From the NCBI GenBank assembly GCA_001603075.1, contig LVBB01000156.1:1-41663 (forward strand): a DNA stretch of 41,663 nucleotides. Direction: 5' to 3'. Each line of letters opens with the position of its first letter. Position 1 is the stretch's first letter. The notes beneath the pieces were generated by a model that made no database searches, was not told the DNA's origin, and was given only the letters and a program-made list of their open reading frames with translations. Shown here in pieces: positions 15,919 through 40,525 of the stretch. The stretch is from Phycisphaerales bacterium Planc_01 (GTDB lineage Bacteria > Planctomycetota > Phycisphaerae > Sedimentisphaerales > Anaerobacaceae). The position numbers and the translations under genes are program-made.

Positions 15919-18900
15919 CTATGCATCCTTGCCGTGGCATTTCTTGTATTTCTTGCCACTGCCGCACGGGCAGGGGTCGTTGCGCCCGACCTTGGGCTGT
16001 TCCAGCCGAATCTGCTTGACCTTCTGCTCTCCCTGCGGGGCCTGGGCGGCAGCGCGCTGTCGCTCGGCCATCGCGAACTGGCCTACCTCATCGTGCGTGG
16101 TCTGGCTGACGTTCCAGACGCTCCTCGCCCGCGTTCCCGCCTCGAGATGCACGCGGAAGATGATATCCGTCACGCGATCCTCGATCGATTCGAGCATCTC
16201 GTTGAACATCCGGTAGCCTTCGCGCTTGTACTCAACCTTGGGGTCCTTCTCGGCAAACGAACGCGTCCAGATGCTGTCTTTGAGGTGATCCATCGCGTAG
16301 AGATGGTCTTTCCACGTGCTGTCGTAGACCTGCAACAGAACGTACCGTTCCAGGTCCGCCAGTTCACGGCGCAGGAAGCAGACGCCCACCGCCCGGAGCC
16401 GCTCCTTCGGATCGTCCTCGTGGCCCAGATCTTCAGGTTTCAGCGAGGCCTCAAATCTCTCATTGGCCCACCGGGTCAGCTCCTCGACGTTCAGGTGGGC
16501 GGCCTTTTCGGCCAGCTCTTCGTCGAGTTTGCCGTCGTTGTAGCTCTCACTGAGCCGCATCAACTGCTCGTGCACCTCGCGCGGTTTTTCGTTCTGCAAC
16601 CGCTCGGCCGAGAGCTCGGCGTTGTACTTCTTGTTGGCCCACTGGGCCAGCGACTCGAATCCATAGACGTTGGCCCCCTGCGATCCGTAGGCCATGCTCA
16701 TGGCGAATTCGACCGGATACTCGATCTCGCGCCGGCGGTATTTCTGCGCCGTCTCGGCGAGCATCCATTCACGCGCCTGCCGGGCATTCATTCCCTTCAG
16801 ATTCTCGATGTCCGGCTTCAGATCGAACTTCGCCCGGGCCCACTCGGCCAGGCGACGCACGGCGAAGTCGTCCCGCAGGAACTCCGCCAGAGGCGAGCAG
16901 TCGCGTCGGTCCACCTGCTCGCACGCGGCCGCAACGAGCTGCTCCTCGATCTCCTCAGGCGACTGGTTCTTGACCTTGCTCGCGCTGAGACTGACCTTGA
17001 ACGCCGACATCGCCCACTTGGTCAGGCCCGCGACGTCCCACGTGCCCGGATCCGCATAATCCTCCAGGTATTCGCCCAGCGAGAGAGAGATGTTGTTCCG
17101 GGCGGCGTCCTTGGCGCGGTCCTTGATCAGATTTGCGACATCCTGGGGCTCGGCCCCGGCCACGTCGGAGATCTTCAACTCAACATCGAAATTCGCGCGG
17201 GCCCATTCGAGCATGCACCGGAAGGGATACTCTTTGTCGAGGATGGACTCGCAATGGCCCGTGATCGTATGGTCGATCATCTCCTCGATCATCGCCTTGA
17301 GGTTGCGGCCTTCGAGGACCTGGCGCCGGCGGGAGTAGAAGATCTTCCGCTGGTGATCCATCACCTCGTCGTATTCGAGCAGGCTCTTGCGGATCTCGAA
17401 GTTCCGCTCTTCGACCTTCTTCTGCGCCTTCTCGATGCCCTTGCTGATGCGGCTGTGGTAGATGGGCTGGCCTTCTTCCCAGCCGATCCAGGACAGCGCC
17501 TTGACCGTCCACTCCGGGGCGAAGACGCGCATCAGATCGTCGTCAAAGCTCAGGAAGAACTGGCTCGATCCGGCGTCGCCCTGCCGGCCGGCGCGCCCGC
17601 GAAGCTGGTTGTCGATTCGCCTCGCCTCGTGCCGCTCGGTGCCGAGGATGTGCAACCCGCCGATCTCGGCCACCCCGTGACCGAGCTTGATATCGGTGCC
17701 GCGGCCCGCCATGTTGGTCGCAATGGTCACGTTGCCGCACATCCGGCCGTCGTGCGCCTTGTGCTGCTGACCCGCCTTGAGAACGATCTGGGCCTCGCGG
17801 GCATGCTGCTTGGCGTTGAGGACCTCGTGGTCGAGCCCGTATCGCTTCGTCAGGGCCGTCGAGAGCAGTTCGCTCTTCTCGATGCTGATCGTGCCGACCA
17901 GAACGGGCCGGCCGGCGGCGCTGGTCTCATGGATATCCTCGACGATCGCGTTGAACTTCTCGGCCATCGACTTGTAGATCACATCCTGCCGATCGTCGCG
18001 GACGCACGACTTGTTCGTCGGAACGACCACGACATCCAGCTTGTAGATCTTCATGAACTCGTCGGCCTCGGTCGCGGCCGTACCGGTCATGCCGGCGATG
18101 TTGGCGTACAGCTTGAAGAAATTCTGGAGCGTGATCGTCGCCAGCGTCTGGCTCTCTTCCTTGACGGTGACCCCCTCCTTGGCCTCGACCGCCTGGTGCA
18201 GGCCGTCGGACCACTGCCGCCCCTGCATCAGTCGCCCCGTGAACTCGTCGACGATGACGACCTTGCCGTCCATCACGACGTAGTCCTTTTCCTTCTCGAA
18301 GACCACATGGGCTCGAAGGCTCTGCTGCAACAGGTGGGGCCAGTCGATATTCGTCCCGGTGTAGAACGACCCCATGCCCGCAATGTCCTGGGCGGCCTTT
18401 TCGCCCTCGTCGGTCATGCGCACCTGCTTGCGGTCGAATTCCACCTCGTAGTACTGCGTCGCCTCGGTCAGTCTGGCCTGTGCGGCGGCAATCTCCTCCT
18501 GGGCTTTTTCGATGGCCTGCTGGGCCTTCTCCATCCGCTTGTTGTCCTTGTCCTTCTTGGCCTCGGACAACTCGCCCTGCGCGTTGGCGATCCTGCGCTC
18601 GGCCGCGTCGATCTGCGCCTTGGTCCGGGTGTACCCCCCCTGAAGCGAGATCAACTGCCGCGCGACCTGGTCGGCCTTTTTGTAGCGGGTCACGTCGTCG
18701 AACGCCGGCCCGGAGATGATCAAAGGCGTCCGGGCCTCGTCGATCAGAATCGAGTCCACCTCGTCGATGATCGCGTACTCGAGCGGCCCCTGGACCATCT
18801 GCTCGAGCATGGTCTTCATGTTGTCGCGCAGATAGTCGAAGCCGAACTCGTTGTTGGTCCCGTACGTGACGTCGCAGAGATAGGTGTCTTTTCGCTCCTG

Positions 18901-19407
18901 GCCGGCCGTATCCATGTCGGACTGGATCGCCCCCACCGTCATGCCCAGCGCATTGTAGACCGGCGCCATCCACTCGGCGTCGCGCTTCGCCAGATAGTCG
19001 TTGACCGTGACGATGTGCACGTGCCGTCCGGTCAGGTGCACCAGATAGGCCGCCAGCGTCGCCACGAGGGTCTTGCCCTCGCCGGTGGCCATCTCGGCGA
19101 TCTTGCCTTCGAACAGCACGTTGCCACCGATGAGCTGAACGTCGAAGTGTCGCATCTCGACGGTCCGCCGGGCCGTTTCCCGCACCACGGCAAACGCCTC
19201 GGCAAGGATGTCGTCCGGGTTCCTTCCGGCCGCCAGGGCCGCCTTGAATTCGGCGGTCTTGGCCTTCAGCGCCGCATCGTCGAGCTGCCGAATCCGATCC
19301 TCGAACGCCCCGGCCCGCTCGACCATGCCGGTATACGATTTGATCAGTCGCTCGTTGCGCGAGCCGAAGATCTTCAGGAGGACTCTACTTACTCTGTCGA
19401 AAGCCAT
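15919..19407 (-). CDS. secA: SecA preprotein translocase ATPase, long form with tandem repeats
   Basis: SecA drives proteins through SecYEG. All core motifs are present: Walker A ([13 protein letters not shown]), Walker B ([14 protein letters not shown]), motif VI ([20 protein letters not shown]) and the C-terminal zinc knuckle ([17 protein letters not shown]). At 1162 residues it is about 250-300 longer than usual. One insertion is a charged coiled coil at about residues 255-325 in the preprotein-crosslinking region ([18 protein letters not shown]). The other lies in the helical wing/scaffold region, where a W-A-x-x-x-F/Y unit recurs at W735, W798, W856, W923 and W980. The same unit normally occurs once. 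secA follows efp by 73 nt on the minus strand and probably shares its promoter. Other alternative starts were not needed: [15 protein letters not shown] is a typical SecA beginning. Confidence 0.97.
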
Positions 19408-21146: not shown

Positions 21147-21262
21147 ATGCAGTTGCAGGGACGTAGCGAGCCGAGTACAGGGCGGCTCATGTTCTTTGCA
21201 CAGGACCCGCGGAAGAAGCCGGCAACAACATGGCCGGCCAAGCGGAGAACGGAGGTTATACC

Positions 21263-23272
21263 ATGACGGCGAAGCACACAAGGAGTCTCCGGACAATCTC
21301 AATTGCACTGGCCATCGTCGCGATGGGCTCGGCCGTGTCCGGCGGCATCACTTTTGTGGACCACGACGCCGCCGGAACGGGCGACGGAACGACCTGGAGC
21401 AACGCCTATGTCCACCTGCAGGACGCGCTGGCCGCAGCGATCGACTTGGACGGACCCGTGGAGATTCGGGTTGCGCAAGGGCTGTATCGCCCGGACCAGG
21501 GAACGAACCAGAGGCTTGGTGACCGTAGCGCCACGTTCAGGCTTCTCAACAACGTGACCCTCAGGGGAGGTTTTGCGGGCGCCGCTGCGCCGGACCCGAA
21601 CGCCCGCGACGTAGGCACGTACCTGACGGTCCTCAGCGGCGATCTGGAGGACAACGATGGTCCGGACTTTGTCAACTGCGAGGACAATGCGGAGGCGGTC
21701 GTTACTTCCATCTCCAACGACACAACCGCCGTCATGGACGGCTTCACCATCACCGGTGGATTCGGCGGGTTCGGGCCCGGCCTGAACTGCCATGACACGT
21801 TCCCCGTCGTGCAGGACTGCACGTTCCGGGTCAACATGGCGGCGGGCGAGGACGGTGGCTATGGGGGCGCCGTGTTCGTCTCAGCAGGAGGGCCCGTATT
21901 CAGCCGGTGCACCTTCGCAGGCAACTGGGCAACGAAGCAAGGCGGTGCCATCTGCAGCCAGAACCGCGCCGACCTGACCGTCCATCACTGCGCCTTTAGA
22001 GCCAACTACGCCGACGACGGCGGCGCCATCCGCAGCGCCAGCGGCAATGTGAACGCTGCCGACTGCACCTTTGTCGGCAACGTGGCCGAAAGCCACGGCG
22101 GCGCTCTCTACTGCCACCAAGGCCGCCATGCGCTGACTCGATGCACGTTCGCCTCGAACTCGGCCCGATGGGGCGGCGGTCTCTACAACCTCTTCGGTGC
22201 AATGGACTTTGTGCGATGCACGTTCACCGCCAATGACGCCGATGAAGGCGGCGGCGTCTACATCGATTCAAGCGCCGCCGTGACCCTGAGCCATTGCCTG
22301 CTGGCAGGCAATCGAGCCCGCGATTGGGGCGGCGCAATGCTGGCCTGGTGCGACAGCAGCCCGGAACTGATCCACTGCACGATTGCCGACAACCGGGCGC
22401 CGGAAGGCTCCGCCGTCTCCAGCGGCGAACCGGTGCTCTGGAACTGCATCGTGTGGAACCGGGAAGCCACGAAATCGCCCTTCCGAGTACAGGGCGTGGG
22501 CCCCGCAGCAGGCTATAGCTGCATCCAGGGTGACTTTCCCGGCCGGGGCAACCTCGACACCGATCCGCTGTTCGCTTCGCCGGGCCATTGGGATTCCAGC
22601 GGGACGGCCGACGATCCCAGTGACGATTACTTCGTCGCGGGGGATTATCACCTCCGATCCGAAGCCGGGCGGTGGGACCCGAACAGCGAAAGCTGGGTAG
22701 CCGACGAGACGACCAGCCGGTGCATCGACGCAGGCGATCCGGACGATGGAATCGGCGAGGAACCCTTCCCAAACGGCGACATGGTCAACATGGGTGCCTA
22801 CGGCGGCACGGCTGAAGCCAGCAAGTCACCCGCCGGCAGTCCTTTGTGTGGGCAAACCGCGTACGAATTCGTGCCCGGGCAGAGCGCCGTCCTTCAGACG
22901 GGAGGATTCGCAGGCGTCAACTGGACATATCGCGTGGAGGGGAATATCCACATCGTCCTCGATTGCCTGATCGGTGTGGCCTCGTTCCGGCGTGTGGACG
23001 CGGCGGCCATCGATGAAAGCAGTTCGCTGCCGCGCCACCTTGACCTCAACGAGGCGTTCCGCCTGACGAGCTTGGTCGGGAGCGCCAAGCCCGACGGGAC
23101 CCTGGTGTTTTCCGGCAAGGCGGCTGATGATAGCGACGTCAGAATTACCGTCGCTTTCAAGGAGGATTGGGTGCTCATGAACGGCCAGACCACTCCGCCG
23201 GCCGGAACAGCGGACTTCTTCATCTTCAGCCTGGATGCGCTGCTGAAGCGATCATCCCACAACGATCGTTGA
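21263..23272 (+). CDS. Secreted right-handed beta-helix protein
   Basis: A 669-residue exported protein. The start (MTAKHTRSLRTISIALAIVAM) is a signal peptide, and the ATG at 21263 has GGAGG seven bases upstream. From about residue 140 to 420 there are many parallel beta-helix coils with the pattern GGAI/V ... CTF.GN.A (CTFAGNWATKQGGAICS, CAFRANYADDGGAI, CTFVGNVAESHGGALYC, CTFASNSARWGGGLYN). An IDAGDPDDG and MVNMGAYGGTAEA region follows, typical of planctomycete secreted choice-of-anchor-type proteins. The last 150 residues are beta-rich and unassigned. The many regularly spaced cysteines suggest a stable extracellular fold. I saw no catalytic polysaccharide-lyase residues, so a structural or adhesive role is equally possible. 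It does not have a dockerin. Confidence 0.85.
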   Translation: MTAKHTRSLRTISIALAIVAMGSAVSGGITFVDHDAAGTGDGTTWSNAYVHLQDALAAAIDLDGPVEIRVAQGLYRPDQGTNQRLGDRSATFRLLNNVTLRGGFAGAAAPDPNARDVGTYLTVLSGDLEDNDGPDFVNCEDNAEAVVTSISNDTTAVMDGFTITGGFGGFGPGLNCHDTFPVVQDCTFRVNMAAGEDGGYGGAVFVSAGGPVFSRCTFAGNWATKQGGAICSQNRADLTVHHCAFRANYADDGGAIRSASGNVNAADCTFVGNVAESHGGALYCHQGRHALTRCTFASNSARWGGGLYNLFGAMDFVRCTFTANDADEGGGVYIDSSAAVTLSHCLLAGNRARDWGGAMLAWCDSSPELIHCTIADNRAPEGSAVSSGEPVLWNCIVWNREATKSPFRVQGVGPAAGYSCIQGDFPGRGNLDTDPLFASPGHWDSSGTADDPSDDYFVAGDYHLRSEAGRWDPNSESWVADETTSRCIDAGDPDDGIGEEPFPNGDMVNMGAYGGTAEASKSPAGSPLCGQTAYEFVPGQSAVLQTGGFAGVNWTYRVEGNIHIVLDCLIGVASFRRVDAAAIDESSSLPRHLDLNEAFRLTSLVGSAKPDGTLVFSGKAADDSDVRITVAFKEDWVLMNGQTTPPAGTADFFIFSLDALLKRSSHNDR

Positions 23273-23465: not shown

Positions 23466-24833
23466 ATGGACCATCGTATGAATCGACGGGACTGCCTGCG
23501 AGCGCTGGGGCTGTCGGGACTGACCGCAGGACTGGGATGGACCGCCGCGCCGTCCGCCCGCGCCCAGGGCGTCGGCGAATCGAGCGGGTTTCAGAGTTCG
23601 GTCATCGACCCACGCAAGGTCCAGGACGCACGGACGGCCGCGACGATCGTGGACGGCAAGGTGATCCAGCCGCAACGCGAGCTGCCGATTCTTCACCAGA
23701 CCGATGTGCTGGTGGTCGGAGGCGGCTCGGCCGGCGTCGTGGCCGCCATCGCCGCCAGGCGCGCCGGTGCCAACGTCACGCTGGTCGAGCGTTACGGCCA
23801 CTTCGGCGGGCTCTGGACCGGCGGGCTCGTCGTGCTGATCCTCGGGCATATCGTCAAAGGAGGCAAGCAGGTCTGCCAGGGGATCGGCGAGGAGATGATG
23901 CGCCGGATGGACAAGCTCGACGGCGCGATCATCGACCGCCGTCCCGGCGTCAATCCGACCGTGGATGCCGAGGCCGCCAAGTACGTCATGGTCGAGATGA
24001 TCGAGGAGGCGGGCGTCGACGTCTTCCTGCACTGCTGGGGCGTTGATGCAATCGTCACGGGGAACACGGTGCGTGGCGTCGTGTTCGAGAGCAAATCAGG
24101 CCGCCAGGCCATTCTGGCCAAAATCGTGGTCGATGCCACCGGCGATGGCGATCTGTTCGCGGCGGCCGGCGCCGAGTTCGAGCACCGCTCGCACAACGTC
24201 GGGCTCGTCTCGCGGATCGGCAACCTGGACCGGATCGATGCCGAGAAAGCCAAAGAGGCCCCGAAGCCCCGCCGGCTGGGCTCGGCCACGCCCGCCCCCG
24301 GCGTCAACTGGGTCAATTTGACCGGTCCGGAGGTGGACGGCCTGGACTTGGCGACGCTGACGCGCATGGAGATGAACCATCGCAAGTTCATCTGGAAAGA
24401 TGTCCAGAGAACGCGTCAGACCCCCGGCTACGAGAAGGTGTATCTCGTCGAGACCGCGCCGCAGATCGGCGTGCGGATCACTCGCGTGCTCAACGGGCTT
24501 AACCGCGTCCGGCTTTCGGACCTCAAGGCGGCGACGAAGTTCCCCGACGTCGTCGGCGTGGGCGGCGCATCCAACGCCACGCACGGCGAATGGCAGATTC
24601 CCTACGGGGCCCTGGTCCCCACCACGGTGGACAACGTTCTCGCATCGGGCCGCTGCATCAGCATGGACATGGGGATGGCCGACCTGGTGCGTCTGATCCC
24701 GAACTGCTTTGTCAGCGGTCACGCCGCCGGTGTTGCAGCAGCCGTGGCTGTTCAAGACCACTGCCGACCCCGCGACGTGGACATCGCCAAGGTCCAGAAG
24801 ATTCTCCGCCAGCAGGAGGCCTATCTCGGGTGA
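23466..24833 (+). CDS. Tat-type FAD-dependent oxidoreductase
   Basis: A 455-residue flavoprotein of the FAD_oxidored (pfam12831-like) group. The N-terminus (MNRRDCLRALGLSGLTAGLG ... ARAQ) looks like a twin-arginine signal, which would export the folded FAD protein. The dinucleotide motif is DVLVVGGGSAGVVAAIAARRAGANVTLVER; further FAD blocks are HFGGLWTGG, VVDATGDGD and VLASGRCISMDMGMADLVR with a C-terminal GHAAGVAAAVAV. The ATG at 23466 has GGAG eight bases upstream. Such enzymes include dehydrogenases for many organic substrates, but none can be assigned. It overlaps the next gene by four bases (GTGA), so the flavoprotein and the Nap-type iron-sulfur protein are probably a single electron-transfer unit. 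Confidence 0.88.
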   Translation: MDHRMNRRDCLRALGLSGLTAGLGWTAAPSARAQGVGESSGFQSSVIDPRKVQDARTAATIVDGKVIQPQRELPILHQTDVLVVGGGSAGVVAAIAARRAGANVTLVERYGHFGGLWTGGLVVLILGHIVKGGKQVCQGIGEEMMRRMDKLDGAIIDRRPGVNPTVDAEAAKYVMVEMIEEAGVDVFLHCWGVDAIVTGNTVRGVVFESKSGRQAILAKIVVDATGDGDLFAAAGAEFEHRSHNVGLVSRIGNLDRIDAEKAKEAPKPRRLGSATPAPGVNWVNLTGPEVDGLDLATLTRMEMNHRKFIWKDVQRTRQTPGYEKVYLVETAPQIGVRITRVLNGLNRVRLSDLKAATKFPDVVGVGGASNATHGEWQIPYGALVPTTVDNVLASGRCISMDMGMADLVRLIPNCFVSGHAAGVAAAVAVQDHCRPRDVDIAKVQKILRQQEAYLG

Positions 24834-26050
24834 GCGGTCCCGCAAAACCCAACAGGCCCTCCGACACGACGGAGAACACAGGACACCGTCGCATTCGGTG
24901 GATCGTTCGCGGCATCTGCCTGGTTGCCGCCGTCGTCGTGCTCCTGGCAGCCCGACAAACGCGCTGGCCGGTCGTGATTCCAGCGATGAGCCCGTTCATT
25001 GCCGCATGCTCGATCCTGGCAACCCGCACCTTCAACGTCATAGCGGTCCTCGGGCTGGCCGTGGGGTTCATCGCCTTCTGGCGAGCCCGCTGGTTCTGCC
25101 GGTGGGTTTGTCCTCTGGGATTCTGCGCCGACGGCGTAAGCCGCATGGGCCGGCGATGCGGTCGAAAGCCAGCGAAGCGGCTCTCGGTCGGACGATGGAT
25201 CGTGCTGTTGACCCTGGCGGGCGCGTGCCTGGGCTATCCTGTGCTGCTGTGGCTGGACCCGCTGGCGATCTTCTCCGGCACGTTCGCATTCGCCGCCTGG
25301 CCAGCCATCGTCCCCCTGCTGACCCTCCTGGCGCTGAGCTTCATGTGGCCGCACATCTGGTGCGGCCGTGTCTGCCCATTGGGAGCCTTTCAGGACGTGC
25401 TCGCCTCCCTGGCCCGGCGCATCCGCAGGCGAACCAGCGAAGGTTCTCCGCCACAGCGATGGAGTCTGCCTGTCGCCCGGCGAACTGTGCTTGGCATCGG
25501 TGCCGGCGCAGCATTGGCCTCGACAGCGCGTCTCGCCCATCGGCCCGCATCGCGGCCAGTGCGTCCGCCGGGTGCAATCGACGAGCCGGGGCTTCTCGGT
25601 GTCTGTATCCGCTGCGGCAACTGCATTCGCGCATGCCCGACCCGCATCATTGAGCCGTCGCTCGGTCGGCATGGAGTGGCGAGCCTCCTGACACCCGTCC
25701 TTCAATTCCGAGAGAACTACTGCTTGGTCGATTGCACGAAGTGCATGGAGGTCTGCCCCAGTGGCGCGCTGATCCGCCTGTCGGCCGAGGGCAAGGCCAG
25801 CAAACCCATCGGGCTACCCGAGGTCGATATGAACGTGTGCTTGTTGGGGGCAGACCGCGAGTGCGCGGAATGCCGCCGGTGGTGTCCGCATGAAGCGATT
25901 CGCTACGTGTGGTCTGAGAGCGAGTACACGCTCATCCCGCAGATCGATCCACAGAAGTGCACCGGCTGCGGCGCTTGTGAGGCGGTCTGTCCCACGAAAC
26001 CGAAGAAGGCCATCGTCGTTGTGCCCCTGGCTGATTCGCCTCGCGGTTAA
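24830..26050 (+). CDS. NapH-NapG-like fusion: membrane protein plus four-cluster ferredoxin
   Basis: Starts at a GTG overlapping the stop of the FAD oxidoreductase (GTGA), with AGGAGG ten bases upstream. The 406-residue product appears to join two usually separate proteins. Residues 20-190 are NapH-like, with about four membrane segments and the two C-x3-CP motifs (C90/C94, C178/C182). At 217-232 an RR-led hydrophobic segment (ARRTVLGIGAGAALAS) resembles a Tat signal. After it comes a NapG/MauM-like ferredoxin, including RPPGAI before the first cluster (CIRCGNCIRACP, C259-C269) as in NapG, then clusters at C298-C309, C337-C352 and C377-C387. NapGH pass quinol electrons to a periplasmic partner; here the partner may be the adjacent Tat flavoprotein. 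It converges on rnr with a 16-bp gap. Confidence 0.87.
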   Translation: MSGPAKPNRPSDTTENTGHRRIRWIVRGICLVAAVVVLLAARQTRWPVVIPAMSPFIAACSILATRTFNVIAVLGLAVGFIAFWRARWFCRWVCPLGFCADGVSRMGRRCGRKPAKRLSVGRWIVLLTLAGACLGYPVLLWLDPLAIFSGTFAFAAWPAIVPLLTLLALSFMWPHIWCGRVCPLGAFQDVLASLARRIRRRTSEGSPPQRWSLPVARRTVLGIGAGAALASTARLAHRPASRPVRPPGAIDEPGLLGVCIRCGNCIRACPTRIIEPSLGRHGVASLLTPVLQFRENYCLVDCTKCMEVCPSGALIRLSAEGKASKPIGLPEVDMNVCLLGADRECAECRRWCPHEAIRYVWSESEYTLIPQIDPQKCTGCGACEAVCPTKPKKAIVVVPLADSPRG

Positions 26051-35394: not shown

Positions 35395-36768
35395 ATGACG
35401 GACGACCTGAAAGACGGATGCACGTTCTCTCGCGGGGTCCATCCCCCCGAGAGCAAACACCTCACGGAAGACCGACCGATCGAACCGGGTCCGGCCGTCG
35501 GCGAGTTGTCGATCCTGCTCAGCCAGCACATCGGCGCCCCCTGCCAGGCGGCGGTCAAGAAAGGCGACCTTGTCCAGGCCGGCCAGAAGATCGGCGAGTG
35601 CCAGGCGTTCGTCTGCGCGCCCGTTCATGCCCCTGTGGCCGGCAAAGTCAAGGAGTTGGCGCTCAAGCCTCACCCGGTGCTGGGACGTTGCCAGGGAATC
35701 ACCATCGAGGCTCAGGAGCCGGCGCCGCCGAGCTTGCCTTCATTCGACCTGCCGGCCGATTTCGATCCGGCTCGCTGCAAACCCGACGAGATCTGTCAGG
35801 CCGTCAGGGAGGCCGGCCTGGTCGGCATGGGTGGAGCGGGGTTTCCCACCAGCGTGAAGATCCAGCCGGATGCGAAGCCGCCCAAGCACACCCTGCTCGT
35901 CAATGGCTGCGAGTGCGAGCCCTATATCACGTGCGATTATCGCATCATGCTCGAATGGACCGACCAGATCCTCGCCGGCGTCCGACTGGCGCAGCGGGCC
36001 TGCGGCGCATCGAAGGTCTTCATCGGCATCGAAGACAACAAACCCAAGGCCATCAAGGCCATGAGCGCAGCGATCGCCAGAGCCGGATCGGCCGGCGACA
36101 TCCGCGTGGTGCCGCTCCAGACGAAGTATCCCCAGGGTGGCGAGCGGCAGCTCATCAACGCCGCGATCGGCCAGACGGTCCCAACAGGAGGCATCCCGCC
36201 GATGATCGGGGTGGTGGTAATCAATGTGGCCACCGCTGCCGCTATCGCCGACGCCGTACTCTGCAACCGACCGCTGACCCATCGTGTCGTCACCGTCACG
36301 GGAGAGGCCATCGCCAGGCCGGGCAATTACTATGTTCCGATCGGAACGCCGGTCGAGGCCCTGATCGAGTTCTGCGGCGGCGTGACCGAGAAATCGGCCA
36401 AGGTCGTCATGGGCGGCCCGATGATGGGGCTCGCCATCGCCGATCTGAGCACGCCGATCACCAAGACCGGCGGTGCGGTCACCGTCCTGACCCGCCACCA
36501 GATCGGCCAGGCGAAGTTCGAACGGCGTCAAACCGCGTGCATCCGCTGCGGCCGATGCCTGGAGGTCTGCCCGGAAAACCTCAACCCCACGCGAATCGCC
36601 CATGCGGTCAAGAGCAACCTGCTGGACGTCGCCGAGAGTCATTTCATCGGCGCGTGTATCGAGTGCGGCTGCTGTAGTTATGTCTGCCCGGCCAATATCG
36701 AACTGACCGGGTACATCAAGACCGGCAAGATCTTCCTGGCCAGACAGAGAAAGAAGATGCCGGCCTGA
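35395..36768 (+). CDS. rnfC: Rnf complex subunit C
   Basis: RnfC is the soluble NADH-binding flavin and iron-sulfur subunit of the ferredoxin:NAD+ oxidoreductase. The 457-residue protein has the barrel-sandwich N-terminus (GVHPPESKHLT, VCAPVHAPVAGKVKEL), the nucleotide/flavin block REAGLVGMGGAGFPTSVK, NGCECEPYITCDYRIM and two 4Fe-4S sites (CIRCGRCLEVCP; CIECGCCSYVCP). It is of the short type without long alanine-rich repeats. The ATG at 35395 has no strong Shine-Dalgarno. rnfD follows after 43 nt. Confidence 0.96.
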   Translation: MTDDLKDGCTFSRGVHPPESKHLTEDRPIEPGPAVGELSILLSQHIGAPCQAAVKKGDLVQAGQKIGECQAFVCAPVHAPVAGKVKELALKPHPVLGRCQGITIEAQEPAPPSLPSFDLPADFDPARCKPDEICQAVREAGLVGMGGAGFPTSVKIQPDAKPPKHTLLVNGCECEPYITCDYRIMLEWTDQILAGVRLAQRACGASKVFIGIEDNKPKAIKAMSAAIARAGSAGDIRVVPLQTKYPQGGERQLINAAIGQTVPTGGIPPMIGVVVINVATAAAIADAVLCNRPLTHRVVTVTGEAIARPGNYYVPIGTPVEALIEFCGGVTEKSAKVVMGGPMMGLAIADLSTPITKTGGAVTVLTRHQIGQAKFERRQTACIRCGRCLEVCPENLNPTRIAHAVKSNLLDVAESHFIGACIECGCCSYVCPANIELTGYIKTGKIFLARQRKKMPA

Positions 36769-36811
36769 CGGGGGCGCCGGGCCACAGCAAGGGACAACGA
36801 GGACTCGATCG

Positions 36812-37825
36812 ATGCTCAAGGATATCACGGTTTCATTCGCACCCCATATCAGCAAGCCGCTTTCGACGCGGCGCGTCATGATCGACGTGGCCGTCGGCCT
36901 GCTGCCGGCCATGGCGGCTGCGGGAATCTACTTCCGCATCCACGCCCTGCTGCTGATCGGCACGTGCGTGGCCTGGTGCGCCGCCACCGAGTGGGTCTGC
37001 AATCGGATTCGCAGGAAACCCAACTCGCTGGGCGACTTCAGCGCCGTCGTCACCGGCATCATCCTGGCTCTGTCGCTGCCGCCGGGCCTGCCGCTCTGGG
37101 CGGCCGCCATCGGCAGCGCCGTATCGATCATCGTCGGCAAGATGGCCTTCGGCGGACTCGGGGCCAACGTTTTCAATCCTGCGATGGTCGGCCGGGCGTT
37201 TCTGACCGCCTCGTTCGGCGTGATGATGACCACCTGGACGGTGCCCGCCTCCATCGACAGCGGCATGCCCACGCTCTCGGCGGCCGACGTCGTGGACACG
37301 CGGACCCAGGCGACCCCGCTGGCCTGGAGCAAAACGGCAATCAAGGACAAAGACGAGGCAAAGACGTACAGCGGCCGACTGCTTTTCTCGACCGTCACCG
37401 GCGAGGTGGCCGGCAGTCTGGGCGAAACCAGCGCGATCGCGATCCTGTTGGGCGGCGTCTATCTGCTTTGGCGAAAGACGATTGGCTTCCATATCCCGGC
37501 AGCAGTGCTCGGCTCGGCCTTCGTCGCGGCGGCCATCGCCTACCTGATCAATGCCGACGCCTACGTCCAGCCGTTCTTTCATCTGACCAGCGGCGCCTTG
37601 CTGTTCGGCGCGTTCTTCATCGCGACCGATCCGGTCACCGCCCCCCTGACGCGCCGCGGCATGTGGCTGTTCGGCATCGGCGTCGGGACCATCACCATGG
37701 TCATCCGCATCCTCGGCGAGTATCCCGAGGGCATGATGTTCGCCGTGCTCCTGATGAATGCGGTGACCCCATTGATCGACCGGCTGTGCAAGCGCATCCC
37801 GGCAGGAGGCAGGCCCCATGCGTAG
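36812..37825 (+). CDS. rnfD: Rnf complex subunit D
   Basis: RnfD is an integral membrane subunit carrying covalent FMN. The 337-residue protein has many membrane helices, begins with MLKDITVSFAPHISKPLSTRRVM and carries the FMN attachment region DTRTQATPLAW, with T168 the likely FMN-linked threonine. A NqrB-type FNPAMVGRAFL block is also present. It overlaps rnfG by 8 nt. ApbE, the enzyme that would attach FMN here, is encoded at the other end of the operon on the opposite strand. Confidence 0.95.
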   Translation: MLKDITVSFAPHISKPLSTRRVMIDVAVGLLPAMAAAGIYFRIHALLLIGTCVAWCAATEWVCNRIRRKPNSLGDFSAVVTGIILALSLPPGLPLWAAAIGSAVSIIVGKMAFGGLGANVFNPAMVGRAFLTASFGVMMTTWTVPASIDSGMPTLSAADVVDTRTQATPLAWSKTAIKDKDEAKTYSGRLLFSTVTGEVAGSLGETSAIAILLGGVYLLWRKTIGFHIPAAVLGSAFVAAAIAYLINADAYVQPFFHLTSGALLFGAFFIATDPVTAPLTRRGMWLFGIGVGTITMVIRILGEYPEGMMFAVLLMNAVTPLIDRLCKRIPAGGRPHA

Positions 37826-38435
37826 CATCAGGCACTTCTTCGAGCAGAGCTGGCTGCTGATCGTCGCGTCGTTCTTCTTCGGCCTGCTGATTGCCGTCAC
37901 CAACGCCGCACTGTCTCCGAGGATCGAGCAGAACAGGAACTCCAAGCTCAACGAACTGGCCGGCGGCCTGCTGCCGGACGCGACGGCATTCACCCCCGTC
38001 GCGGAGACGATCGAGATCCAGGCCCTCGACGGCAAACAGCAAAAACTGGCAGTCTATCGGGCCACAACGGGCAGTCAGACAGTTGGATGGGTCTTTCAGG
38101 TGGTCGGTTCCGGATTCGCCGACAAGATCGAGCTGGTCGTCGCCGTCGACGCCGCGTTCACAAGCCTCGCCGGCTTCGACGTCCTTGCGAGCAACGAGAC
38201 GCCCGGCTTCGGCGATCAGATCAAGTATGGTTACTACCGCGACCAGTTCAAGGGCGCCCCGACCGACGGGTTGACGCTCGTCAAAAGCGGGGATCCCGCG
38301 ACAATCGACGCCCAGATCGTCGCCATCACGGGCGCCACCGTCAGCAGCACAGCGGTGGTTCGCGCGATGGACCACTATCTTCCACAGGTCAAGACGCAAC
38401 TCCAACAGAAGGGGCTGATCGGCCATGGCAACTGA
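37818..38435 (+). CDS. rnfG: Rnf complex subunit G
   Basis: RnfG is a membrane-anchored, externally located subunit with covalent FMN. The 205-residue protein starts with one membrane segment (SWLLIVASFFFGLLIAVTNA) and has the FMN-binding block with GFGDQIKYGYYRDQF and ITGATVSSTAVV, with T174 as the likely FMN attachment threonine. The ITGAT form replaces the common SGAT. It overlaps rnfD by 8 nt and rnfE by 11 nt, indicating translational coupling. Confidence 0.95.
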   Translation: MRSIRHFFEQSWLLIVASFFFGLLIAVTNAALSPRIEQNRNSKLNELAGGLLPDATAFTPVAETIEIQALDGKQQKLAVYRATTGSQTVGWVFQVVGSGFADKIELVVAVDAAFTSLAGFDVLASNETPGFGDQIKYGYYRDQFKGAPTDGLTLVKSGDPATIDAQIVAITGATVSSTAVVRAMDHYLPQVKTQLQQKGLIGHGN

Positions 38436-39045
38436 TTCCGACGGACAGACGTGCGTGTACAAGAACACGTTGCTCGCCGGCCTCTGGCGAGAGAACCCGG
38501 TCCTGCGCCTGCTGCTGGGCATGTGCCCGACGCTGGCGGTCACCGCGGCGGTCAAGCCGGCCTTTACGATGGGCATGTGCGTGGTCTTCGTGCTCGTGTG
38601 CAGCAACGTCATGGTCTCTCTGATGCGCGACAAGCTCAAGCCGCACCTGCGCATCCTGATGTTCACCCTGACGATCGCCACGTTCGTGACCATCGCCGAC
38701 CTGCTGCTCAAGGCATTCCAGCCGGACATGAGCGCCGCACTCGGGCCGTATGTGCCGCTGATTATCGTCAATTGCATCATCATCGCGCGGGCCGAGGCGT
38801 GCGCCAGCAAGAACCCCATCCTGCTGAGCATCGTCGATGCCCTGAGCATGGGCGCCGGATTTACCGTCGCCCTGTGCGTCCTGGCGGGCATCCGGGAGGT
38901 GCTTGGCACCGGCAAGTTCTTCGAGATTCAGGTCATGCCGAAGGCGTTCGTGCCCTGGGCGGCGCTGAGCATGCCCGTCGGCGCGTTTCTGGCGCTCGGG
39001 TTCCTGCTCGGGCTCGTCACCCTGATCACCAAGAAGCGCAGTTAA
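38425..39045 (+). CDS. rnfE: Rnf complex subunit E
   Basis: A 206-residue polytopic membrane subunit, homologous to RnfA and NqrD/E. NPVLRLLLGMCPTLAVT is the characteristic cysteine-bearing first helix; PYVPLIIVNCIIIARAEAC is its second-half counterpart, and the two cysteines are those expected to hold the intramembrane iron site with RnfA. It starts inside the end of rnfG. AGAGGT at its 3' end is the ribosome site for rnfA. Confidence 0.95.
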   Translation: MATDSDGQTCVYKNTLLAGLWRENPVLRLLLGMCPTLAVTAAVKPAFTMGMCVVFVLVCSNVMVSLMRDKLKPHLRILMFTLTIATFVTIADLLLKAFQPDMSAALGPYVPLIIVNCIIIARAEACASKNPILLSIVDALSMGAGFTVALCVLAGIREVLGTGKFFEIQVMPKAFVPWAALSMPVGAFLALGFLLGLVTLITKKRS

Positions 39046-39056
39046 GAGGTCGCAGC

Positions 39057-39644
39057 ATGGATACCGTCTATCTCCTGATCACGGGTTTCCTTTCGGTCGT
39101 CCTGATCAACAACCTGGTCCTGACGAAGTTCCTGGGCATCTGCCCGTATCTGGGCGTGTCCGGCCGGATCGACATGGCCTTCGGCATGGGCCTGGCCGTC
39201 ACGTTCGTCATGACGCTCAGCGGCACCCTCACCTGGCTGATCGACCACATGGTCCTGATCCCGCTGGGCCTGGAGGTGACGCGGTACGTCTGCTTCATCC
39301 TGGTCATCGCCAGCGCCGTGCAACTGGTCGAGATGTACCTGCGGAAGTTCTTCCCGCCGCTCTACGACAGTTTTGGGATCTTCCTGCCCCTGATCACGAC
39401 CAACTGCGCCATCCTGGGCCTGTGCCTGTTCCTGAATCTCTGGGGCATCGACAGCCTGCTCGAAGCGGTCGTCCTGAGCGTGGGCGGCGGCATCGGCTTC
39501 ACGATGGCCATCTGCATCATGGCCGGCATCCGCGAGAACCTGCGCATGGTCGATGTCCCTGAAAGCCTTCAGGGCGCGCCGATTACGTTGATTACCGCCG
39601 GCATCCTCTCGCTGGCGTTCATGGGATTTGCGGGAATCATATGA
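39057..39644 (+). CDS. rnfA: Rnf complex subunit A
   Basis: A 195-residue membrane subunit with the RnfA pattern: NNLVLTKFLGICPYLGVSG and FLPLITTNCAILGLCLFL, each with the expected cysteine. The longer frame around it begins inside rnfE; the real start is the ATG at 39057, with AGAGGT six bases upstream. The last four bases (ATGA) overlap the start of rnfB. Confidence 0.95.
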   Translation: MDTVYLLITGFLSVVLINNLVLTKFLGICPYLGVSGRIDMAFGMGLAVTFVMTLSGTLTWLIDHMVLIPLGLEVTRYVCFILVIASAVQLVEMYLRKFFPPLYDSFGIFLPLITTNCAILGLCLFLNLWGIDSLLEAVVLSVGGGIGFTMAICIMAGIRENLRMVDVPESLQGAPITLITAGILSLAFMGFAGII

Positions 39645-40525
39645 TGATCTTAGCGAGTATTGTCGATCTGTTGAGCAGCGCCTGGATGGCGGGCCTGATT
39701 ATGCTGGGCCTTGGTTTCGTTTTCGCGGTGATTCTGCTGATCGCCCACGAGAAGCTCAAAGTCGAGGTGGACCCGCGCATCGTGCAGATCCATGCGGCGT
39801 TGCCGAACATTGACTGCGGCGCATGCGGGTTTGCCGGCTGCGGCGGATACGCCAAGGGCGTGCTCGAAAACCCGGAGCTGATCGGCCGCTGCTCGCCCGG
39901 CGGCGCGGCCGTCGCCGCCAGGATCGCCGCGATCCTCAACCTGCAGGCCAGCGAGTCCGGGCCGGCCCAGAGACCCATCGTCCACTGTCGGGCCCACACC
40001 GCCGACCGGACGTACTATGCCGAGTACCAGGGCATCCCAAGCTGCACCGCCGCCAACGCCCTGGCCAACGCCCAGGCGTGCAAGTTCGGGTGTCTCGGCT
40101 TCGGAGACTGCGTCCGCGCCTGCAAGTTCGATGCGCTGCACATTATCGACGGCCTGTCCACCGTCGATTACAGCAAGTGCACCGGCTGCACCGCCTGCTC
40201 GAAGGCGTGCCCGCGCAACCTGATCGAGATGGTCCCGTTCGGCCACGAGAACATGATGACCGTCGCGTGCAGCAGCAGGGAAAACGGCAAGACGACACGG
40301 GCAATGTGCCAGGTCGGCTGCATCGGCTGCGGCCTGTGCGCCAAGCAAAGCGACGCCTTCACCATCGCCGACAATCTCGCCCGCATGGACTATGCGAAAT
40401 ACGCCCCCTGCGGCGAGAACGAAGCCGCCCTGAACAAGTGCCCCACCGGCGTCATCGTCTACCGAGGCAAGACCGCCCCACCCCCGCGCGAATCCAAAGC
40501 CAAACAAGCCCCCGCCAAGGCATAG
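39641..40525 (+). CDS. rnfB: Rnf complex subunit B, polyferredoxin
   Basis: RnfB accepts electrons from ferredoxin. The 294-residue protein has an N-terminal membrane helix (MAGLIMLGLGFVFAVILLI), the Fe-S domain CGACGFAGCGGY (C59, C62, C67, C84) and a long ferredoxin part with cysteines at 147-161, 180-190 (CTGCTACSKACP), 223-233 (CQVGCIGCGLC) and 267. With 21 cysteines it is the long, multi-cluster type known from anaerobes. It starts at the ATGA overlap with rnfA and ends the operon. The tail (about 276-294) is Pro/Lys rich. Confidence 0.95.
   Translation: MMILASIVDLLSSAWMAGLIMLGLGFVFAVILLIAHEKLKVEVDPRIVQIHAALPNIDCGACGFAGCGGYAKGVLENPELIGRCSPGGAAVAARIAAILNLQASESGPAQRPIVHCRAHTADRTYYAEYQGIPSCTAANALANAQACKFGCLGFGDCVRACKFDALHIIDGLSTVDYSKCTGCTACSKACPRNLIEMVPFGHENMMTVACSSRENGKTTRAMCQVGCIGCGLCAKQSDAFTIADNLARMDYAKYAPCGENEAALNKCPTGVIVYRGKTAPPPRESKAKQAPAKA

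Follow-up and report, generated by a model that had tools for sequence, protein, structure and literature searches.

A compact NapH–NapG-type fusion polyferredoxin encoded beside a Tat-type flavoprotein in planctomycetes

The window analysed here, a stretch of 41,663 nt on contig 156 (LVBB01000156.1) of the uncultured planctomycete Phycisphaerales bacterium Planc_01 (G000; 5.65 Mb assembly, 97.4% complete), encodes a polyferredoxin in which a NapH-like membrane core and a NapG-like ferredoxin are joined in one polypeptide. The fusion gene (24830–26050, + strand; 406 amino acids (aa) plus stop, GTG start, no internal stops) directly follows a gene for a flavin adenine dinucleotide (FAD)-type flavoprotein with a predicted twin-arginine translocation (Tat) signal (23466–24833, + strand; 455 aa plus stop). 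Across the genomes surveyed, the flavoprotein nearly always occurs with the fusion partner, whereas the fusion partner can occur without this flavoprotein. We propose that the two genes probably specify an extracytoplasmic electron-transfer module, in which a fusion protein assembled by both Sec and Tat would serve an exported, docking flavoprotein, with electrons probably flowing outwards. Below, G and L numbers denote genomes and loci of the survey.

A NapH-like core fused to a NapG-like ferredoxin

Profile searches recognized both halves of the protein. Pfam placed two Fer4_5 domains and several Fer4 models on it. The NCBIfam NapH/MauN model matched residues 49–194 (E 3e-18), with NapH-type scores of 66.3 bits against a cut-off of 213.05 and 56.2 bits against 234, while NapG matched residues 210–400 (E 6.8e-26; 91 bits against 269) and mauM_napG residues 222–399 (E 1.2e-22; 80.5 bits against 178.85); none of these NapH- and NapG-type matches reaches its curated cut-off. 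A search of solved structures gave seven matches, of ferredoxin type.

In an alignment with stand-alone NapH proteins from three genera, the N-terminal half of the fusion corresponds to the NapH membrane core only (residues 22–173; 24893–25348, +), as delimited by hydropathy and net charge and overlapping the NapH/MauN match. Two CX3CP motifs, C90-C94-P95 (25097–25114, +) and C178-C182-P183 (25361–25378, +), align with those of NapH. The C-terminal cytoplasmic two-cluster part of NapH is absent in the alignment with the three NapH proteins, and the NapG-like part starts in its place; before the twin arginines, the fusion protein has the two CX3CP motifs only and no cytoplasmic CxxCxxCxxxCP motif. 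The twin arginines themselves (RR, residues 217–218) lead a weakly hydrophobic last segment (residues 217–237; 25478–25540, +) that lines up with the Tat signal at the N terminus of stand-alone NapG proteins. It is followed by an RPPGAI lead-in (residues 245–250; 25562–25579, +), NapG-like in the same kind of alignment, and by a ferredoxin with four 4Fe-4S motifs (residues 259–388; 25604–25993, +), identified from the Fer4 Pfam models, the NapG model and cysteine conservation. Its 16 cysteines are at positions 259/262/265/269, 298/302/305/309, 337/345/348/352 and 377/380/383/387.

This anatomy agrees with an initial annotation made from the DNA letters alone, which had read the gene as a NapH–NapG-type fusion; the Pfam and NCBIfam matches over both halves and the alignments bear that reading out. 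The two CX3CP motifs, RR-led segment, four-cluster ferredoxin and RPPGAI lead-in that it listed are likewise conserved in a 22-member alignment, which includes the window protein and was drawn from loci having the gene pair, some with approximate starts. In this set, RR is kept in all 22 members, in agreement with the annotated internal Tat-like segment. Among the ferredoxin cysteines, all are present in 22 of 22 except C259 (21 of 22); C90, C94 and C182 of the CX3CP motifs are invariant and C178 is present in 21, as are P246 and G248 of the lead-in, with R245 and P247 in all 22.

Several lines of evidence support the join as real. In-frame fusions recur in relatives at 86, 68, 58, 53, 51, 51 and 40% identity, and at no fewer than nine loci of named public genomes. 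In two within-genus comparisons, the ratio of nonsynonymous to synonymous substitution rates (dN/dS) is 0.26 and 0.22 over the full length and 0.16 and 0.33 for the linker and RR stretch (residues 196–258); every value, whether for the entire protein, either half or the linker, is below 0.35, which indicates purifying selection. Separate NapG and NapH proteins are present in many genomes, and an assembly or frameshift error merging two such genes was the outcome that the initial annotation named as undoing the fusion; the sharing of the in-frame fusion by many independent assemblies and the purifying selection on the joined protein make such an error extremely unlikely. Because of the relatives' in-frame fusions, the invariant RR and the low dN/dS, we count the join as real and, as judged from sequence, the feature is well conserved and encoded by one intact gene.

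A persistent flavoprotein partner

The upstream gene encodes a member of the FAD_oxidored family (PF12831; E 1.2e-80, 272.3 bits against a gathering threshold of 27) whose relatives align over the full length. By eye, its N terminus has the form of a Tat signal peptide (23466–23564, +), with NRRDCL, a hydrophobic stretch and a cleavage-like site, SARA-Q; all 17 aligned flavoproteins, that of the window among them, have R7 and R8, and the Pfam matches do not include TAT_signal. Its dN/dS against genus relatives is 0.07–0.08. It shares the full-length domain match with other PF12831 proteins; what sets this subgroup apart is the apparent Tat-type signal and the membrane partner. The two genes overlap in GTGA (24830–24833), the fusion-gene GTG start lying within the flavoprotein-gene TGA stop. 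The initial annotation had noted this overlap, and the coupling it implied is backed by the distribution of the pair, which also turned up in related genomes where that annotation had suggested looking for it.

In a scan of 397 genomes of the class, the flavoprotein was matched in 20 (E<=1e-60) and the fusion protein in 27 (E<=1e-30). One flavoprotein match, in G116, was left out as non-orthologous: it is the weakest of the 20, at 37% identity over query residues 72–451 only, with no Tat-type start by eye and no fusion protein within 14 kb. The fusion gene lies directly downstream on the same strand in 17 of the 19 orthologous cases (G000, G001, G002, G005, G036, G079, G099, G110, G150, G159, G181, G228, G247, G304, G332, G370 and G378), being divided over two contigs in G001 and following a flavoprotein that appears frame-broken in G247. 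For the other two, the contigs end 165 nt (G060) and 29 nt (G213) after the flavoprotein. Seen from the fusion protein, 17 of the 27 genomes are paired. G337 has a contig that begins inside the flavoprotein gene, the last 48 codons of which lie just upstream of the fusion gene; G213 has the two genes at the ends of different contigs; a further one is G070. Separate NapG or distant forms, at 34–41% identity over the matched part, account for G076, G132, G170, G171, G235, G345 and G348. G171 and G235 are compact fusions too, the former behind a Tat-type DUF362 gene and the latter starting near a contig end.

Outside the class sample, the pair was also found in G004 and, at 49 and 39% identity, in G031; G012, G032 and a second G031 fragment lie at contig edges and were left unjudged. 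The fusion protein is present in five of six genus members examined. A scan of 392 genomes of the phylum (flavoprotein E<=1e-100, fusion protein E<=1e-50) added five flavoproteins, four of them with an adjoining full-length partner (G552, G566, G673 and G740). Among public genomes, where 80 loci were kept of at least 147 relatives, at least nine full-length compact relatives (L092–L100) comprise six paired loci, two that lack the flavoprotein, and one lying at the edge of its contig. The six paired loci include a Verrucomicrobia bin and a Thermoguttaceae bin, and two are G159 and G247 again. It is on these class, phylum and public-genome counts that the nearly invariable, one-sided association stated above is based; the pair is thus also present in planctomycetes of other classes and in one Verrucomicrobia bin. 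Identities of the two proteins correlate across genomes (r 0.83, 231 pairs of 22 genomes), a value uncorrected for shared ancestry that we do not use as proof.

The wider neighbourhood is conserved within the genus. Beyond it, neighbours mostly differ, which indicates that the conserved unit is the pair and not a larger block; the genus of the distant pairs in G110, G150 and G247 has some neighbours in common. The neighbouring genes indicate no pathway. In G110 the pair has a sulfatase gene next to it, and in G337 one follows the fusion gene, perhaps by chance. The Thermoguttaceae flavoprotein is 75–77% identical to those of the order Sedimentisphaerales, and the Verrucomicrobia flavoprotein is 79% identical to that of the planctomycete G673. 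Because of these identities across groups, horizontal transfer of the pair is suggested; both copies come from metagenome bins, and mis-binning could be the cause instead.

Relation to known systems

The fusion architecture is not new. Polyferredoxin (PFD, Q1NSB0) from the delta proteobacterium MLMS-1 was described in 2017 as a NapH–NapG fusion with RR before its transmembrane domain 5 (TMD5; Tooke et al. 2017, PMC5449189), and with reporters in Escherichia coli its export, though not its membrane insertion, depended on Tat and on RR (PMC5449189). The initial annotation had taken an internal Tat-like segment in such a fusion to be unusual and new; with the MLMS-1 precedent it is expected rather than anomalous. 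The two proteins have in common the NapH–NapG fusion, RR directly before the last helix, a weakly hydrophobic RR-led helix and four 4Fe-4S motifs behind it. They differ in size: MLMS-1 PFD is longer, with TMD5 at 338–359 and three predicted cytoplasmic clusters, against RR at 217 and two CX3CP motifs here, a comparison made by description and not by alignment. We regard the planctomycete protein as a compact variant rather than a plain member of the MLMS-1 type because the three predicted cytoplasmic clusters are not matched here; the available sections of PMC5449189 do not make these clusters a defining rule, and we treat their absence as variation.

With the NapGH quinol dehydrogenase the fusion shares the CX3CP membrane core and a four-cluster ferredoxin with a Tat signal and RPPG lead-in. 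It departs from NapGH in being one polypeptide with an internal signal, in missing the two C-terminal clusters of NapH, in scoring below the NapH and NapG cut-offs, and in its genomic setting: as the initial annotation had supposed from the window, nitrate reductase was not found, NapA (TIGR01706) giving no match at E<=0.001 in the 97.4% complete genome. The control search gave matches in 11 of 14 genomes, above the cut-off in one.

NapH-like modules are described as modular, serving various extracytoplasmic reductases or oxidases, including the alcohol oxidase ExaA (PMC8238504). In these systems and in RdhC/PceC (PMC5928378), as here, a NapH-type core goes with differing outside enzymes, and RdhC also lacks the C-terminal clusters of NapH (PMC5928378). 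According to the sections available, however, the systems of PMC8238504 and PMC5928378 use a covalently flavinylated flavin mononucleotide (FMN)-binding domain, in place of which the present pair combines a ferredoxin of NapG type with a separately encoded Tat-type FAD protein; no FMN-binding domain was found in the two genes or in eight Pfam-scanned neighbours, and rnfG lies ~12 kb away. A further parallel is the tetrachloroethene (PCE) region of Sulfurospirillum multivorans, where a NapGH-like quinol dehydrogenase is proposed to feed a reductive dehalogenase (PMC4585668); that module consists of two genes, and its partner is a dehalogenase. Among the literature matches listed (titles and abstract openings, with subscription papers, preprints and supplements outside scope), there is no description of a flavoprotein–polyferredoxin pair. 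Neither the compact form of the fusion nor its conserved association with a PF12831 flavoprotein of Tat type is described among those matches, and the association is the newer part.

Topology and the RR-led segment

By hydropathy alone (Kyte–Doolittle), the window protein has five hydrophobic segments ahead of RR. Judged by net charge, four helices are favoured, an even number that would match the N-in arrangement of the MLMS-1 type; the two CX3CP loops would then face inwards, with the stretch 47–65 forming an outside loop: median net charges are +6 and +3 for the CX3CP loops and +1 and −1 for the other loops. In the window protein, the RR-led segment has a hydropathy of 1.04, against 1.85–2.29 for the other four segments (on the Kyte–Doolittle scale, not the energy scale of Tooke et al.), and it ranks lowest among the five in 18 of 22 members. 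As in the dual Sec/Tat polyferredoxin, where positive charges come after the Tat-dependent helix, it is followed by one to six lysines or arginines within 15 residues in 22 of 22 members, and TatC is present in the genome.

The weak hydrophobicity of this segment and the five segments that precede RR by hydropathy would also fit an ordinary Sec-inserted helix or a re-entrant stretch, leaving the ferredoxin half in the cytoplasm. We consider such an arrangement very unlikely in view of the invariance of RR, the correspondence of the segment to NapG Tat signals in the alignment, the RPPG lead-in, and the experimental precedent of MLMS-1 PFD.

A putative two-gene electron-transfer module

In the proposed module, Sec would insert the four helices of the fusion protein, and the RR-led, weakly hydrophobic last segment would then be passed to Tat, which would carry the ferredoxin, already folded around its four clusters, across the membrane to the outer face. 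The flavoprotein, exported separately by Tat, would dock on the ferredoxin, giving a path from a membrane carrier, perhaps a quinol, through the CX3CP core and the ferredoxin to FAD. We judge the outward direction the more likely, with a reduced membrane carrier supplying the flavoprotein as a reductase. We favour this proposal because of the MLMS-1 anatomy, the invariance of RR and the cysteines, the presence of TatC, the net-charge pattern, the pairing of the genes, and the precedent of NapH-like modules serving other enzymes.

Several observations weigh against it. The family of MqnA and MqnD was not found in the genome (the classical menaquinone pathway was not searched for), and the available part of a survey reports the Sedimentisphaerales as fermentative and without an electron transport chain. 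The 'quinone-linked' of the initial annotation, which followed from the resemblance to NapH only, is thereby weakened. As for the pairing, G003, of the same genus and 75% complete, has only a weak fusion-protein match (best E 2.5e-5), and in G573 (L206 7497–9882, −) an intact flavoprotein adjoins a fusion gene that keeps the membrane half only, the ferredoxin half being lost. The fusion protein occurs without this flavoprotein in G070 (the same as L095; 437 nt upstream examined) and at L097 (2.3 kb upstream), as do more distant fusion proteins, for example in G424 of the phylum sample and in G171. As for the topology, 4 of 22 members have another segment that is less hydrophobic than the RR-led one, and the number of segments before RR by hydropathy alone is odd. 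AlphaFold models of the two proteins from shallow alignments (10 and 6 sequences) have mean predicted local distance difference test (pLDDT) scores of 47 and 42, too low for structural claims.

The same anatomy would allow electrons to run inwards, from a substrate of the flavoprotein, acting as an extracytoplasmic dehydrogenase, through the ferredoxin and membrane core to quinone, and the association of NapH-like modules with ExaA (PMC8238504) lends this route some plausibility. We nevertheless regard it as unlikely, since flow from quinol towards the reductase is what has been described both for NapGH and for the NapGH-like module of the PCE region (PMC4585668) and since no dehydrogenase signature or substrate hint was found for the flavoprotein among 60 of its 79 solved-structure matches, which mostly cover the N-terminal FAD-binding region. 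The carrier, too, could be something other than a quinone, with the core fed from a cytoplasmic source such as an Rnf/ferredoxin pool, or acting as a thiol relay through the CX3CP motifs. The missing Mqn family, the reportedly chain-less order, the rnfCDGEAB operon in the window and the absence of NapH's cytoplasmic clusters all lean this way, as does the discussion of CX3CP as a disulfide or metal site (PMC5928378); the finding of the pair in Verrucomicrobia and in further classes of planctomycetes may speak against it, and we think a non-quinone carrier rather improbable. More doubtful still is a dedicated, horizontally spreading respiration-like module outside the cytoplasm, in which a minimal NapH core devoid of cytoplasmic clusters would drive a Tat-exported flavoenzyme from a membrane donor other than menaquinol in anaerobic planctomycetes that are said to have no respiratory chain.

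Under the proposed module, an uncharacterised group of apparently exported PF12831 flavoproteins gains a likely membrane partner, which makes their function testable, and a compact form with a conserved partner joins the few proteins believed to depend on both Sec and Tat for their assembly. If the host truly lacks quinones, the question becomes what NapH-type cores react with.

Related fusions and neighbouring genes

An automatic test of the 80 public loci found NapH–NapG-type fusions in contigs labelled Bacteroidetes, Deltaproteobacteria, Acidobacteria, Desulfovibrio, Spirochaetia and others. Some of their membrane-half scores are weak (20–60 bits); in the three that were examined with Pfam (L102, L106 and L113), both parts were recovered. 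RR precedes the ferredoxin in several of these proteins and not in all, L106 having KR and L111 none in the stretch examined. At L100 (4956–6674, +), the Thermoguttaceae fusion protein has 572 aa, with an enlarged linker and, by eye, a long A/Q-rich insertion between the third and fourth helices. G099 has a 959-aa frame (L086 2028–4907, +) whose first half has ferredoxin motifs and whose residues 605–930 form a compact NapH–NapG-like part. In G573, the sequence behind the cut fusion gene resembles, by eye, the end of an integrase.

The genome of the window itself holds a second, longer NapH–NapG-type fusion with an internal RR and extra cytoplasmic clusters, on contig 128 (L046 8372–10030 and 10133–11362, both −), where it adjoins a protein with tetratricopeptide repeat (TPR) and FMN-binding domains. 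On contig 106 (L045 802–3078, +), a DUF362 protein with a Tat-like start is followed by NapH-like and RR-plus-NapG-like frames; this is apparently a third module with another partner, and the frame looks broken between 2231 and 2311.

Within the window, an rnfCDGEAB-type operon (35395–40525, +) lies ~9 kb downstream of the pair, with matches to the rnfC, rnfD, rnfG, rnfE, rnfA and rnfB models, that to rnfG below cut-offs. Upstream, a beta-helix protein gene (21230–23272, +) stands between an ADP-ribosylglycohydrolase gene and the flavoprotein gene; G005, G002 and G001 have a gap of ~120 nt instead, pointing to a gain here or a loss there. Farther upstream, a SecA of 1162 aa (15919–19407, −) has a DEAD-like domain match that covers 440 residues although the model has 290 positions, which points to a large insertion. 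In G228, the gene immediately downstream of the pair encodes a protein with a hydrazine synthase alpha middle domain (L075 5388–7730, −); its relatives are also found close to the pair in G110, G150 and G247.

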